A stretch of DNA of 64,000 nucleotides from a virus: the IMG/VR virus record IMGVR_UViG_3300010885_040738, positions 1 through 64,000 of that record; one strand, written 5' to 3'. The notes below the pieces were generated by a model, which saw nothing but the letters and a program-made list of their open reading frames with translations, was not told the DNA's origin and did not search any database. This document shows positions 8,087 through 13,690 of the stretch, piece by piece (the stretch's first letter is position 1; each line of letters opens with the position of its first letter). Position numbers and translations under genes: made by a program.

Positions 8087-9628
8087 ATGGCCTTCATTCT
8101 CCGCCCTCACCAGGCCCATGACTTTGAACTGCTGCGCGAAAAGGTGGCAGAACACCGCGCCGTGCTACTGGTGGCTCCTTGCGGCTACGGCAAGGGCGTT
8201 GTAACGACCAAGATCATTGACGGCACGATGAAGAAGGGGAAGCACGTACTTTTTTTGGTACACGGCCGAGACAGAGTCGCGGACATGGAAGACCGCGTAA
8301 CGAAGCTCGGAATTCCCCATGGCATTCTGATGGGATCTCGCCGGCGGGAGCGTCACCACCTTGTCCAGATCGCCAGCAGCGACACCGTGTACCGAATGCC
8401 GCATAAGCCAAAGGCGGATTTGATCATCATTGACGAAACCCACCTTGCGATGAGCCCGACGTTCCGGGCCGTCCTGGACTTCTACCCTGACGCCAAGATA
8501 ATTGGGCTGACCGCTACGCCGGTCCTTGGCAACGGCAAAGGGCTGGGCAAGGCTTCCGGCGGGATCTATGACTCCATGATCGTCGGGCCGTCAGTGAAAG
8601 ACCTCGTAAGCGAAGGGTATCTGGTGGGCTCTCGGGTGATGGCTCCGCCGCCGCCTGCAGAGCTGAAGAATTTGAAGAAGAAAAAGACCGGCGACTTTGA
8701 CGGCGAACAAGGTGCTGCGATTTGCGACAACCGCAAGGTCATCGGCGACATAATCGAGCACTGGAAACTGTACTCCAGGGACCGAAAGACTGCTGTGTTT
8801 GCGTTCAATCAAAAGTACGCTTATCACATTGCCGAGCAGTTTCGCGAACAGGGCATCAACTGGGCCTACGTGGACGCGGACACGCCCGACGGCGACATTC
8901 ATACGCCCGGGACGCGCAAGTTTATCTGGCACCAGTACGACCATGGTGACTTAGTCGGGGTGAGCTCTGTAGGCTGTATTTCTATCGGCTGGGACCATAG
9001 CATCTGCAAAAGCCTGATTTTCGCTGCCAAGACTACCAGTTTCCCGCTGTACCACCAGCGCCTTGGGCGCGGCTCCAGACCGCACAAGGGGTACTCTGAC
9101 TTTCTTGTTTTGGATCATACCGGCAACCTGTACGAGCACGAGGAACAGGGTCCTTACTTTGAGTCCGACATCAAGTGGCAACTGAACGGTGATGGCGTCA
9201 AAAAGCACGACGAAGACGACCCGGCCCCGCGTGTCTCCACATGCAAGCGCCCGCAGCCCATACCTGACGGCGGGGTGCCTTCGTGGTTTAAGGGCCAGAC
9301 GACAAACGGCTACATGCTCTGCTGCTACCTGACTTTCAAGGCCGGACCCCGGGAGTGTCCACGTTGCGGCTTGCCGATTGCTGTTGATCAGCCAGACATC
9401 AAGGTTGAAGACGGTCACCTTGAAGAAATTACGGAGGGCATGAAGCAGGAGGCGGAGGAGAAGCGGGCGCGGATCGCCGAGCACAAGCAAAAATATCTGG
9501 AAATGTATCTGGAGGGCGTACAAAAAAAGTACAAAAGTGGCTGGGCTTCGATAAGATATAAAGCAGAGTTCGGCCAGTGGCCGGCGAGACAGTGGAAGGC
9601 GGAAGCCTTAGAAATGGTGACCGAGTGA
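8087..9628 (+). CDS. SF2 DEAD/DEAH-like helicase with C-terminal zinc motif
   Basis: 513 residues. R-P-H-Q near the start is the Q-like motif. Motif I is A-P-C-G-Y-G-K-G (30-37), motif II is D-E-T-H (about 117-120), motif III region is L-T-A-T-P (about 142-146), and motif VI is Q-R-L-G-R-G-S-R (about 324-331). A C-P-R-C-G pair with C-C upstream lies near 411-428, followed by a charged helical tail. Such helicases unwind or remodel DNA or RNA with ATP; in phage replication modules they usually act on replication or recombination intermediates. Confidence 0.88.
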   Translation: MAFILRPHQAHDFELLREKVAEHRAVLLVAPCGYGKGVVTTKIIDGTMKKGKHVLFLVHGRDRVADMEDRVTKLGIPHGILMGSRRRERHHLVQIASSDTVYRMPHKPKADLIIIDETHLAMSPTFRAVLDFYPDAKIIGLTATPVLGNGKGLGKASGGIYDSMIVGPSVKDLVSEGYLVGSRVMAPPPPAELKNLKKKKTGDFDGEQGAAICDNRKVIGDIIEHWKLYSRDRKTAVFAFNQKYAYHIAEQFREQGINWAYVDADTPDGDIHTPGTRKFIWHQYDHGDLVGVSSVGCISIGWDHSICKSLIFAAKTTSFPLYHQRLGRGSRPHKGYSDFLVLDHTGNLYEHEEQGPYFESDIKWQLNGDGVKKHDEDDPAPRVSTCKRPQPIPDGGVPSWFKGQTTNGYMLCCYLTFKAGPRECPRCGLPIAVDQPDIKVEDGHLEEITEGMKQEAEEKRARIAEHKQKYLEMYLEGVQKKYKSGWASIRYKAEFGQWPARQWKAEALEMVTE

Positions 9629-10862: not shown

Positions 10863-11173
10863 AATTGCCATCGGCGGCAGAACTGACTGGGTCAAATCCT
10901 GATCACCCGGAGACGCAAAATGCGCTACTTGCACGGCTGGAGCGGGAAATCCGCGAGGACAAGGCCGACGCAGAGGCGCTCCGGGCGCTGGGGGCGTGGG
11001 TAAACGCGGACAAAGGCTGGCGGCGCGTGTCCGGCATTTGCAGTGGCGAACGTTTTGAATTTGAGGTGACGATTCGATTTTGGCGCGGCACTGACGGGCA
11101 GCAAGAGGTCAGTGGCGAGGCCGACACTCTTGCGGGTGCCATTATGGACGCGCTCTCGAAGGCGGCACGATGA
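10859..11173 (+). CDS. Hypothetical protein (104 aa)
   Basis: ATGA overlap at both ends. The N-terminal half is a charged amphipathic helix region (about 20-50) and the second half is beta-rich (F-E-F-E-V-T-I-R-F-W). No family recognised. Placed directly before a nuclease and a DNA methylase, so a DNA metabolism role is possible. Confidence 0.6.
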   Translation: MKLPSAAELTGSNPDHPETQNALLARLEREIREDKADAEALRALGAWVNADKGWRRVSGICSGERFEFEVTIRFWRGTDGQQEVSGEADTLAGAIMDALSKAAR

Positions 11174-11568
11174 CCGCAAACCAGATCACCGCAGAGCTGC
11201 TGATTGAGATCCCGAAGCGATTCCCGAACTCTATTTGCTGGCGGAACAATACCGGCAGCGGCATTGGCATGGCCAGCGTTCGCGCCGCCATCGCCTGCCT
11301 AAAGCGACAGGACTGCAAGGGCGCGCTGGGTCACCTGAAACGTCCGGTTGGGTTTGGGCTGGTGGGAAGCTCGGACATCATCGTTATTATGGCGCCCGGC
11401 GGCCGCTTTGTCGCCGTTGAGGTCAAGGCCGAAGGCGATAAGCAGTCGAACGTACAGTGCTCGTTTGAGGCGAGCGTGACGGCCCTCGGTGGCGCGTATA
11501 TCGTAGCCCGTGACGTTGCGGAATGCCTGGCAGAAATGGAGGCGAAATGTGGATACACGTCCCGTTAG
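11170..11568 (+). CDS. VRR-NUC domain nuclease
   Basis: 132 residues. W-R-N-N-T-G near 24, then G-S-S-D-I-I-V-I (about 66-73) and V-A-V-E-V-K-A-E (about 80-87) give the D...E-x-K core of VRR-NUC PD-(D/E)XK enzymes. C-terminal Q/A/G strand-helix (about 94-118) completes the fold. Standalone phage VRR-NUC proteins are structure-selective endonucleases, often considered Holliday-junction or flap processing. Its last 22 bp overlap both following reading frames, so all three forward frames are open and apparently coding at 11547-11568. Confidence 0.82.
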   Translation: MTANQITAELLIEIPKRFPNSICWRNNTGSGIGMASVRAAIACLKRQDCKGALGHLKRPVGFGLVGSSDIIVIMAPGGRFVAVEVKAEGDKQSNVQCSFEASVTALGGAYIVARDVAECLAEMEAKCGYTSR

Positions 11569-13115
11569 AGTGCTCTCCCTCTTCAGTGGCGTCTCCGGAC
11601 TCGGCCTTGGCGTCCGAATCGCTTTACCAGAATCTCGCCACATTTGTTTCGTCGAGAGGGAATTTGCTGCCTGCGAAGTACTGGCAGCGCGCATGGCCGA
11701 TGGATCGCTTGACCCGGCACCCATCTTTACGGATATTACCCAGTTCGACGGCAAGCCGTGGCGTGGACGAGTGGATCTTATCGAAGGGGGCTTCCCATGC
11801 CAAGACCTGTCCGTTGCCGGAAAACGAGCCGGGATCACTGGAAGCCGGTCAGGGCTTTGGGGTGAGTACGTCCGCCTCATTGAAGAAAGCCAGCCCGAAG
11901 CAGCATTCATTGAAAACGTCGGCGGACTACTCTCAAGTCGCACTCTTCTCCACAGATCCGACATACTGGGACACTTCGACGCAATTCGCAGCGCCGCGCA
12001 AACTCCGCAAGAGCGCTGGCACGCTGAAGCTCACATCGAACGCCTTCACCGGCGACTTCTCAAAACACAAGGAATCTCGGCATTGCTCTATGTCCAGTGC
12101 TGCCTGGGAGCGCTGGGTTACGAAAGCGAGGCGGGATTTTTCACGGCGTCAGAAGTCGGGGCCAGTCACAAGCGAGAACGTGTTTTTGTCTTGGCGCATC
12201 GCACCGGCGGAAGGTTCCGGGATATCTGGCGAGACGCAGAGCGGGGTTTGGCGGAGTCCGAACACGAGGGACCATCATGCGGGAGGTCCGCGCCTGCACC
12301 ATCCTCAGCGGCAGGTGGCGCTGGTGGACCAGTCAACCGAGTGGCCGACACCCAGTGTCCCAAATGGCGGCCGGACGACCAACACGACAACAACCAGGGC
12401 GGACGGCAGCAAGCGCCAAGTGGATCTGGGGGCGATAGCTCCGTTGTGGCCAACTATCACGACAAGCGACGGCGGGGCGGAGACAACAACGCAGAAGCAG
12501 GGCCGGGGATCTGGCGGGGGCAATATCCAAGCGGCAGCGAGCCTTTGGCAGACGCCGGCGACGGACTCATTTCGGAGCCGTGGCGGGGACCGTCAGGACG
12601 AGATGGGGCTGGACCAAGAAGCGCGGCACTGGGGGACGCCGACGACGCGGGACTGGAAGGACGGCAGCAGCGCGGACGCGGACTGCGAGACGAACGGGCT
12701 GCTGGGACGTCAGGTGATCCGGAACTGGCCGACACCGACTCCATGGCAACAGGAGGAGTCGCCGGAATCATTCGAGGCGCGGCGGATTCAGCAAAAGGCG
12801 AGGGGGATCAACGGGAACGGGATGGGCGTGCCGCTGGACATGATGGCGACCTGCCTCTTTTCGCCCCAGGCCCCGGAGCAAGCGACTTCTGGCAAGACCT
12901 GCTGGTGCGGCACCCAGAACTGCGACCTGCCATCTCACAGGCGGAGATTGAACGCCTTGTTTGTAACCTGGATGATGAATTGGCCGCTGTTTTGGCTGGC
13001 TCCCGTACCGACCAACTCAGGGCGGCAGGGAATGGCGTTGTATCTCTTCAGGCAGCGTTCGCTTTTGTCACGCTTGCTCGGCAAATCTGCAAGCAATAAA
13101 GGAGCCGCACAATGA
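11547..13115 (+). CDS. 'WPTP' phage protein of unknown function, overlapping the methyltransferase in another frame
   Basis: 522 residues from ATG 11547, 2 nt upstream of the methyltransferase GTG and using the same SD (GGAGG). It starts M-W-I-H-V-P, has a Ser/Pro-rich first third, a W-E-R-W-V-T-K-A-R-R segment near 195-205, repeated W-P-T-P / W-Q-T-P / W-G-T-P motifs (about 260-420), K-A-R-G-I-N-G-N-G-M-G-V-P-L near 430, and L-N-A-L-F-V-T-W-M-M-N-W-P near 480. I recall separate phage hypotheticals with the same layout (MWLHVPST start, WPTP repeats, KAKGINGNGMG, LNPxFVEWLMGWP end). If so, this frame is a real second gene over about 1.55 kb. Function unknown. It ends with TGA overlapping the next ATG (ATGA). 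Confidence 0.55.
   Translation: MWIHVPLECSPSSVASPDSALASESLYQNLATFVSSRGNLLPAKYWQRAWPMDRLTRHPSLRILPSSTASRGVDEWILSKGASHAKTCPLPENEPGSLEAGQGFGVSTSASLKKASPKQHSLKTSADYSQVALFSTDPTYWDTSTQFAAPRKLRKSAGTLKLTSNAFTGDFSKHKESRHCSMSSAAWERWVTKARRDFSRRQKSGPVTSENVFLSWRIAPAEGSGISGETQSGVWRSPNTRDHHAGGPRLHHPQRQVALVDQSTEWPTPSVPNGGRTTNTTTTRADGSKRQVDLGAIAPLWPTITTSDGGAETTTQKQGRGSGGGNIQAAASLWQTPATDSFRSRGGDRQDEMGLDQEARHWGTPTTRDWKDGSSADADCETNGLLGRQVIRNWPTPTPWQQEESPESFEARRIQQKARGINGNGMGVPLDMMATCLFSPQAPEQATSGKTCWCGTQNCDLPSHRRRLNALFVTWMMNWPLFWLAPVPTNSGRQGMALYLFRQRSLLSRLLGKSASNKGAAQ
11549..13099 (+). CDS. DNA (cytosine-5) methyltransferase
   Basis: 516 residues from GTG 11549. Motif I is L-S-L-F-S-G-V-S-G-L-G (9-19). Motif IV is G-G-F-P-C-Q-D-L-S with catalytic Cys84. 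Motif VI is E-N-V (122-124). Motif VIII is A-S-H-K-R-E-R-V-F near 211-219. C-terminal R-A-A-G-N-G-V-V-S-L-Q-A-A matches motifs IX/X. Between VIII and IX, about 250 Gly/Arg/Asp-rich residues replace a normal target-recognition domain. It methylates C5 of cytosine, probably to protect phage DNA. The whole gene is overlapped by another long frame starting 2 nt earlier. Confidence 0.85.
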   Translation: MDTRPVRVLSLFSGVSGLGLGVRIALPESRHICFVEREFAACEVLAARMADGSLDPAPIFTDITQFDGKPWRGRVDLIEGGFPCQDLSVAGKRAGITGSRSGLWGEYVRLIEESQPEAAFIENVGGLLSSRTLLHRSDILGHFDAIRSAAQTPQERWHAEAHIERLHRRLLKTQGISALLYVQCCLGALGYESEAGFFTASEVGASHKRERVFVLAHRTGGRFRDIWRDAERGLAESEHEGPSCGRSAPAPSSAAGGAGGPVNRVADTQCPKWRPDDQHDNNQGGRQQAPSGSGGDSSVVANYHDKRRRGGDNNAEAGPGIWRGQYPSGSEPLADAGDGLISEPWRGPSGRDGAGPRSAALGDADDAGLEGRQQRGRGLRDERAAGTSGDPELADTDSMATGGVAGIIRGAADSAKGEGDQRERDGRAAGHDGDLPLFAPGPGASDFWQDLLVRHPELRPAISQAEIERLVCNLDDELAAVLAGSRTDQLRAAGNGVVSLQAAFAFVTLARQICKQ

Positions 13116-13690
13116 ACGCCGTATTCCTACGTCTGCCCAATGGCAGCGAAACGAACATCTCCATCTGCACGTCATGCGGGGCCCCGGCGCGAGGCCGAAC
13201 GCAGTTTGACATCTCCGAGAAATGCTGCACATGCTGGGAGTGCGGCGGGCCGCTGACGGCGGAAGAGAAGAAGCACCCAGGGCATTATCATGCGGCGTGT
13301 GATCGGCTACGCAGAGGCACGATGGATCTGGCGCGCTTGGAGAAGGCCACGCTGGTCGAGAATTACGACGGGCCGGTTTACTGTGAGGGCGTCCCAGGCG
13401 GAAGCTACGGCGACGGGTATTTCTCAGACGTTGACGAACTTGAGGATTGTCTCGAAAAGGGCTGTGGCGTAGAGTTCGCCTACTGCTGCACGTCGTCCCG
13501 CGTTGTAGCACTTGACCTTGACGGCATCCTTGAAAACGCTACGCAGGAGTCTTTCGAGGACGCCATTGACCATATTAAAGGCCGCGACTATCTTCAGGCT
13601 GCTGTGGATGCGTTCAACGCAGCAAACGCGAAGTTGTTGAGCTGGGATGTGGACTACTCCCGGAAAGTGAAGGTGGAGCGTGGGAGCTAA
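13112..13690 (+). CDS. Cysteine-rich protein of unknown function (192 aa)
   Basis: ATG 13112 with AAAGGAG upstream. The N-terminal 70 residues contain C-T-S-C, C-C-T-C-W-E-C and a later H/C set that could bind two zinc ions. The central part is acidic (S-D-V-D-E-L-E-D-C), and the C-terminal 60 residues are helical. No family recognised. Confidence 0.65.
   Translation: MNAVFLRLPNGSETNISICTSCGAPARGRTQFDISEKCCTCWECGGPLTAEEKKHPGHYHAACDRLRRGTMDLARLEKATLVENYDGPVYCEGVPGGSYGDGYFSDVDELEDCLEKGCGVEFAYCCTSSRVVALDLDGILENATQESFEDAIDHIKGRDYLQAAVDAFNAANAKLLSWDVDYSRKVKVERGS

Follow-up and report, generated by a model that had tools for sequence, protein, structure and literature searches.

A proposed two-subunit C5-cytosine methyltransferase encoded in two overlapping frames of the same phage DNA

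In the 64,000-nucleotide stretch of viral DNA analysed here (the window), two long reading frames cover the same DNA on the same strand, which raises the question of whether both are genes and, if so, what the second frame of a methyltransferase locus encodes. The two frames are here called A (the methyltransferase, alpha) and B (the WPTP frame, beta), B being the +1 frame of A. Their starts and lengths, and the single GGAGG in front of both, are as the first-pass annotation had read them (Table 1). By direct reading, A ends in TAA (13097–13099) and B in TGA (13113–13115). The source record of 93,184 bases carries terminase and tail genes and is therefore that of a tailed phage. A ResIII-type helicase (8087–9628) and a VRR-NUC nuclease gene are found near the methyltransferase; in phage fTaEco01 a helicase and a VRR-NUC gene likewise flank the methyltransferase.

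Table 1. Features of the overlapping locus and the adjoining genes, with positions in the window.
Feature	Position	Strand	Basis or remark
VRR-NUC nuclease gene upstream, within which both starts fall	11170–11568	+	PF08774, 2.7e-7
GGAGG, Shine-Dalgarno-like, common to both starts	11538–11542	+	Direct reading
Overlapping starts ATG (B)/GTG (A), motif NTGTGG	11547–11551	+	Same layout in relatives
Frame B, proposed beta subunit	11547–13115	+	ATG start; 522 aa; WPTP repeats, GINGNGMG module, motif IX
Frame A, proposed alpha subunit	11549–13099	+	GTG start; 516 aa; C5-cytosine methyltransferase, motifs I–VIII and X, without motif IX
Disordered linker of A, residues about 242–443	12272–12877	+	pLDDT < 50; opposite the WPTP part of B
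WPTP...KARGINGNGMGVPL module, B residues about 394–442	12726–12872	+	53% identity over 49 aa to L288
Motif IX (LNALFVTWMMNWPLFWL) in B	12948–12998	+	B motif-IX profile against single-chain enzymes
Motif X region in A (SRTDQLRAAGNGVVSLQAAFAFVTLARQICK; GNGVV)	13001–13093	+	Like the motif X end of single-chain relatives
Downstream gene, ATG overlapping the stop of B (ATGA)	13112–13690	+	Direct reading

The GGAGG lies 4 nt from the ATG of B (11547–11549) and 6 nt from the GTG of A (11549–11551), and is probably used by ribosomes for both starts. Longer upstream versions of both ORFs are possible (from GTG 11510 and ATG 11523), but the starts in Table 1 are favoured because relatives retain the dual start NTGTGG (L002, L003, L011, L013, L015, L177, L188, L189, L190, L196, L203, L221, and L245), which agrees with the earlier suggestion of one ribosome-binding site for starts 2 nt apart. 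In this group NTGTGG provides NTG for B and, 2 nt later, GTG for A; the second residue of B is always W, and B then usually reads W[LI]x[IV]P. In the MNEL group, A starts with ATG, GTG, or TTG (32, 19, and 8 loci) in the sequence [AGT]TGAATGAG, which places the ATG of B 4 nt later, and it is the ATG of B that is retained, in 59 of the 64 loci examined, while the start of A varies. In HSRWLMG-type loci the start of B lies within A, and stops ahead of it are tolerated. The ATGA-type coupling downstream of B is also present in L002 and L003.

Frame A matches PF00145 (2.3e-30) and phrog_363 (9e-51), and the Pfam match and alignment place motifs I, IV (PCQ), VI (ENV), and VIII of the catalytic core in it. 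Residues 1–240 and 497–515 of its AF2 model are mostly well predicted, the latter as a helix with pLDDT 86–92, residues 241–443 are disordered, and the best fold match by Foldseek is M.HhaI (E=2e-10). The C-terminal motif X region has 60% identity over 25 aa to that of L250 (E=8e-4). The first-pass annotation had given this frame a full set of methyltransferase motifs, which is borne out for I–VIII and for X; motif IX, however, is absent from A in a pattern search of both frames and is found in B instead. The disordered insert described for the methyltransferase does lie opposite the WPTP part of B, and in relatives this linker region evolves near neutrally; it is close to neutral filler. The linker of A is of an ADAD type and might be the recognition domain; some single-chain relatives, for example L294 and L312, also have such a linker in A.

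As had been read from the sequence before, it is B that holds the WPTP repeats, KARGINGNGMG, and the LNALFVTWMMNWP end. B matches phrog_1008 (1.3e-11) and phrog_27243 (3e-8), and the match of the L008 B-frame protein to phrog_1008 spans the full profile length; no Pfam or NCBIfam family was found for B. By blastp, the B of the window matches the in-frame middle of single-chain methyltransferases (L288 at 2e-8, L242 at 1e-7), with no hit from any of 50 shuffled versions of B, and the matching 49-aa segment of L288 is in frame with its own methyltransferase. A profile of B ends finds the motif IX that immediately precedes motif X in single-chain enzymes (L312, E=1e-12), and the L312 segment so matched aligns with M.HhaI 270–318, which covers motifs IX and X. 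Thus A matches the motif I–VIII and motif X parts of the single-chain relatives and B their middle and motif IX parts and, because these are complementary parts of the same proteins, A and B together spell one enzyme. As judged from these alignments, B carries the part that is missing from the enzyme of A, motif IX with the WPTP and GINGNGMG modules, and is not an unrelated second protein but holds the motif IX and variable/WPTP part of the same methyltransferase.

Against PDB sequences, neither the B profile nor the motif IX profile alone has a significant methyltransferase match, the link passing via the single-chain relatives; the hemocyanin and WW-domain matches of these profiles are chance. 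AF2 predicts B alone poorly (mean pLDDT 44.8), its best part being motif IX and the C-terminal helices (470–477, 490–510), and Foldseek returns no match for the model, so that B is without independent fold support save in these parts.

The reading preferred here, at a probability of roughly 0.83, is that the locus encodes a heterodimeric C5-cytosine methyltransferase with alpha (A) and beta (B) made from the same DNA in different frames. Translation of both proteins, their pairing, methylation, and the biological role would, we infer, proceed as follows. Ribosomes would load at one Shine-Dalgarno and choose between start codons 2 nt apart. Alpha would supply the catalytic domain (I–VIII) and motif X, and beta would supply motif IX and the WPTP/GINGNGMG modules, which sit between VIII and X in single-chain relatives, the WPTP modules being perhaps the target-recognition part; alpha and beta would then pair, rebuilding the normal enzyme. 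Restriction evasion is the usual role of phage methyltransferases and is assumed for this locus, where the rebuilt enzyme would probably shield the phage DNA from host restriction.

The same pieces could be joined differently if a ribosome starting in A shifted +1 into B (and back or not) by programmed frameshifting, making one chain with motifs I–VIII, WPTP, IX, and X. The parts of the enzyme are in the correct linear order for this, and in L030 and in the mycobacteriophages Priya and YungJamal, whose motif X belongs to the B frame, one +1 shift would be enough to complete the enzyme. In the window and in most loci, however, motif X is in A and two shifts would be needed, while B has its own conserved start adjoining that of A and remains open over the full length of the catalytic core, for which a shift further downstream gives no need. 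Frameshifting is therefore improbable as the explanation. It is slightly less probable still that B is a separate effector, for example restriction-blocking or regulatory, that borrows methyltransferase-like motifs and is not part of the enzyme. In its favour, no known domain is found in large stretches of B, most of all in the N-terminal half; but motif IX is missing from A at just the point where B carries it, these pieces are joined in single-chain relatives, and +1 ceases to be kept open over the core once motif IX is in A.

That both frames are selected, as the first-pass annotation had proposed, is seen in relatives, and in the window both frames are open beyond chance. Expected numbers of stops were obtained by synonymous shuffling, and the tests across loci and of substitutions were made on relatives, none of them close enough to the window to test it by itself. 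When the protein and codon usage of A are kept in the window, 6.0 stops are expected in the +1 frame and none is seen (P(0)=1.5e-4; 20,000 shuffles); when B is kept, 12.6 are expected in the frame of A and none is seen, an outcome not reached in any of 20,000 shuffles. For comparison, 16 further large window ORFs, treated as genes, have open stretches in +1 of no more than 152 codons. Between motifs VIII and IX, 1 stop is seen in the +1 frame against 195 expected (141 loci), and over the catalytic core of window-like loci 5 B stops are seen against 172 expected (106 loci), while the +2 frame of overlapping loci is not depleted of stops. Over the core of the control loci, +1 stops number 39 against 47 expected in single-chain enzymes and 179 against 195 in canonical ones. 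The open +1 frame is not, then, a by-product of the methyltransferase fold, since these control loci are not stop-depleted.

Substitutions are divided in a similar way. From VIII to IX they fall mainly at the third codon position of B, with omega_B at 0.18–0.45 and omega_A at 0.67–1.6. Over the core, changes silent in A that alter B occur at 0.41 of the rate of those silent in both (SN/SS; 95% interval 0.33–0.52), against 0.85 (0.66–1.14) in controls, which is the reduced synonymous change that had been proposed as a check; for changes silent in A that create a stop in B the value is 0.18 against 0.95 in controls. These two measures were used over the core in place of NN/NS, which was rejected as a measure of selection on B there since it hardly differed from that of controls (0.84 against 0.85); the amino-acid constraint on the N-terminal half of B is therefore moderate at most. 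A flank-gene control rests on few pairs and is supporting only. In relatives, selection is thus divided, A being dominant over motifs I–VIII and B from VIII to IX; both frames are under selection, and each is homologous to a complementary part of the single-chain enzymes.

It is very unlikely, given these results, that B is a translation artefact, the +1 frame being open through GC content and the constraints of A. The GC content is about 61%, and conserved motifs of A do force look-alike +1 peptides, such as partial tblastn matches over the core only, but the synonymous shuffling contradicts this explanation, as do the single-chain controls, which have the same catalytic core and do not keep +1 open, and the B-first conservation between VIII and IX. 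The N-terminal half of B stays open and is mildly constrained in dozens of loci. On this basis it is conceivable, though rather doubtful, that the N-terminal half of beta is a functional domain, which for example holds alpha inactive until assembly or fixes the alpha:beta ratio by start choice; the architecture would in that case represent a major overlooked family of phage enzymes with two proteins from one gene.

Stops or frameshifts in one frame among close relatives had been named as evidence against two genes. The scarcity of B stops over the core speaks for two genes in this respect, but the record is not free of exceptions. In L245, from an Acidovorax MAG and otherwise close to L002, there is one B-frame stop, 213 nt past PCQ. 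In L023 (2911–3888) the frames are swapped near motif IX, so that motif IX comes at the end of A and B is cut short; this is a recent frameshift or a sequencing error. In L096 (2862–4052) a stop in A falls exactly at the Gln codon of PCQ (PC*PFS) with B intact, and may be a recoded stop, an error, or a dead alpha.

The relatives themselves were not found by an A-only pattern scan of viral contigs, nor by tblastn with B at 1e-5. A lax tblastn with B gave the first homologues, in phages of Acidovorax, Komagataeibacter, Klebsiella, Synechococcus, and Salmonella and in EBPR podovirus 2, all with the methyltransferase frame and a +1 frame (WPTP repeats, LNPxxxxWLMGxPxxW end) on the same DNA; the proposed check, whether WPTP proteins overlap methyltransferases at the DNA level, thus found such overlap in phage relatives. 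The B query matches 222 phage records, and scans of IMG/VR and GTDB genomes gave at least 320 loci. At least 210 viral and genomic loci, counting scan loci, phage records, and the window, have motif IX in +1 relative to the methyltransferase. In phage N15 (L174, 1480–2205) an unannotated B frame overlaps gene 58 in +1, gp58 being frame A.

In the cases of Priya (gp83/gp82) and YungJamal (gp7/gp6), alpha and beta are two genes that overlap only partly. Here alpha ends just past motif VIII and the +1 beta overlaps it by about 180–210 nt, with the IX and X parts and most of the LPTP part lying beyond the stop of alpha. The B of L022 has matches to both beta genes (8e-6 and 3e-6). The existence of mycobacteriophages in which the B part is a gene apart, only partly overlapping, indicates that the B module is a real protein, and these gene pairs are the strongest natural witness for the split enzyme. 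Actinobacterial enzymes with motif IX in A, those of L250 and L010 (Babsiella gp55), nonetheless keep a +1 ORF with TWPxSGM and LPTP modules, so that beta may do more than supply motif IX.

Insertions are also seen in this gene family. L013 (1920–3752) has a LAGLIDADG-like homing endonuclease insertion at B residues 139–193 (PF00961, E=0.003, below the curated cut-off), through which A is open; L080 (3657–4052) has an HNH-like ORF in the third frame between motifs IX and X (PF01844, E=9e-4); and in L015 (3594–4322) an inserted Cys-rich ORF is fused after motif IX, motif X then being in another frame. Insertions such as those in L013 and L080 would favour the view that B is a homing endonuclease concealed in another frame of a methylase, like the ShiLan domain (PMC11855218), but the B of the window has no endonuclease, HNH, or other Pfam domain and spans the whole gene, which an insert does not, making this the least credible of the explanations.

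Long overlaps on the same strand are usually dismissed by annotation programs, and here one of 1.55 kb recurs in at least 210 sampled phage and prophage loci. Annotations often keep one frame, as had been suspected: of 14 phage records examined with motif IX in +1, 5 list A without B, 6 list B without A, and 3 list the two. Annotated phage 'methyltransferases' of the overlapping type are thus probably no more than half of an enzyme each, and an attempt to clone a single frame should be unsuccessful. The loci also provide a natural series, from single chain to partly overlapping to fully overlapping, of how a change of frame splits a protein.

The phage and actinobacterial single-chain enzymes (Babsiella gp54, L288, L242, L312) share the catalytic core and have motif IX, with LPTP repeats in Babsiella, L288, and L242 and the GINGNGMG module in L288 and L242; in these everything is in one frame and, as a group, +1 over the core is not kept open. 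The same +1 overlap with both frames annotated, as pairs of 'DNA methyltransferase' genes, is present in K1ind2 (ORF28/29), PhiXhv-18, fTaEco01, and Paenibacillus phage Bloom, where beta starts inside alpha and not at its start, and the records give no joint mechanism. Similarly, phrog_1008, 31772, and 27243, matched by B-frame proteins, are labelled 'DNA methyltransferase' or unknown, the overlap being unmentioned. 'Mte8-like' was rejected as an identity, being only an annotation label. The general pattern is undescribed in the literature searched, which covered only a minority of subscription journals. The hidden HNH of ShiLan, likewise a gene lying out of frame within a phage methylase, is of a different kind (PMC11855218).

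Two-polypeptide C5-methyltransferases are already known; the window has a full-length, co-initiated beta. One of them, M.EcoHK31I, recognises YGGCCR. Its beta, in work by Lee from 1995, is reportedly nested in alpha in another frame, with both needed for activity, and the second polypeptide of the loci described here is likewise in another frame of the first, +1 in at least 210 of them. M.AquI is split between motifs VIII and IX, its small subunit carrying IX and X (PMC3404938); the window differs in having motif X in frame A, while L030, Priya, and YungJamal are AquI-like in its placement. In M.EcoHK31I the large subunit has I–VIII and X and only motif IX is on the small one (PMC3404938), which is also the distribution in the window. 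The target-recognition domain of M.EcoHK31I is in the large subunit (PMC3404938), whereas in window-type loci the VIII–IX region is conserved in B and the part of A there drifts, which would hint at the opposite arrangement. Unlike M.EcoHK31I, the window has a beta as long as alpha, starting 2 nt upstream of it with a common Shine-Dalgarno and carrying WPTP repeats, and the pair is a phage gene with no partner restriction enzyme noted. The locus is best read as a split alpha/beta C5-methyltransferase similar in kind to M.EcoHK31I but extreme in its layout, the likeness being judged by motif distribution.
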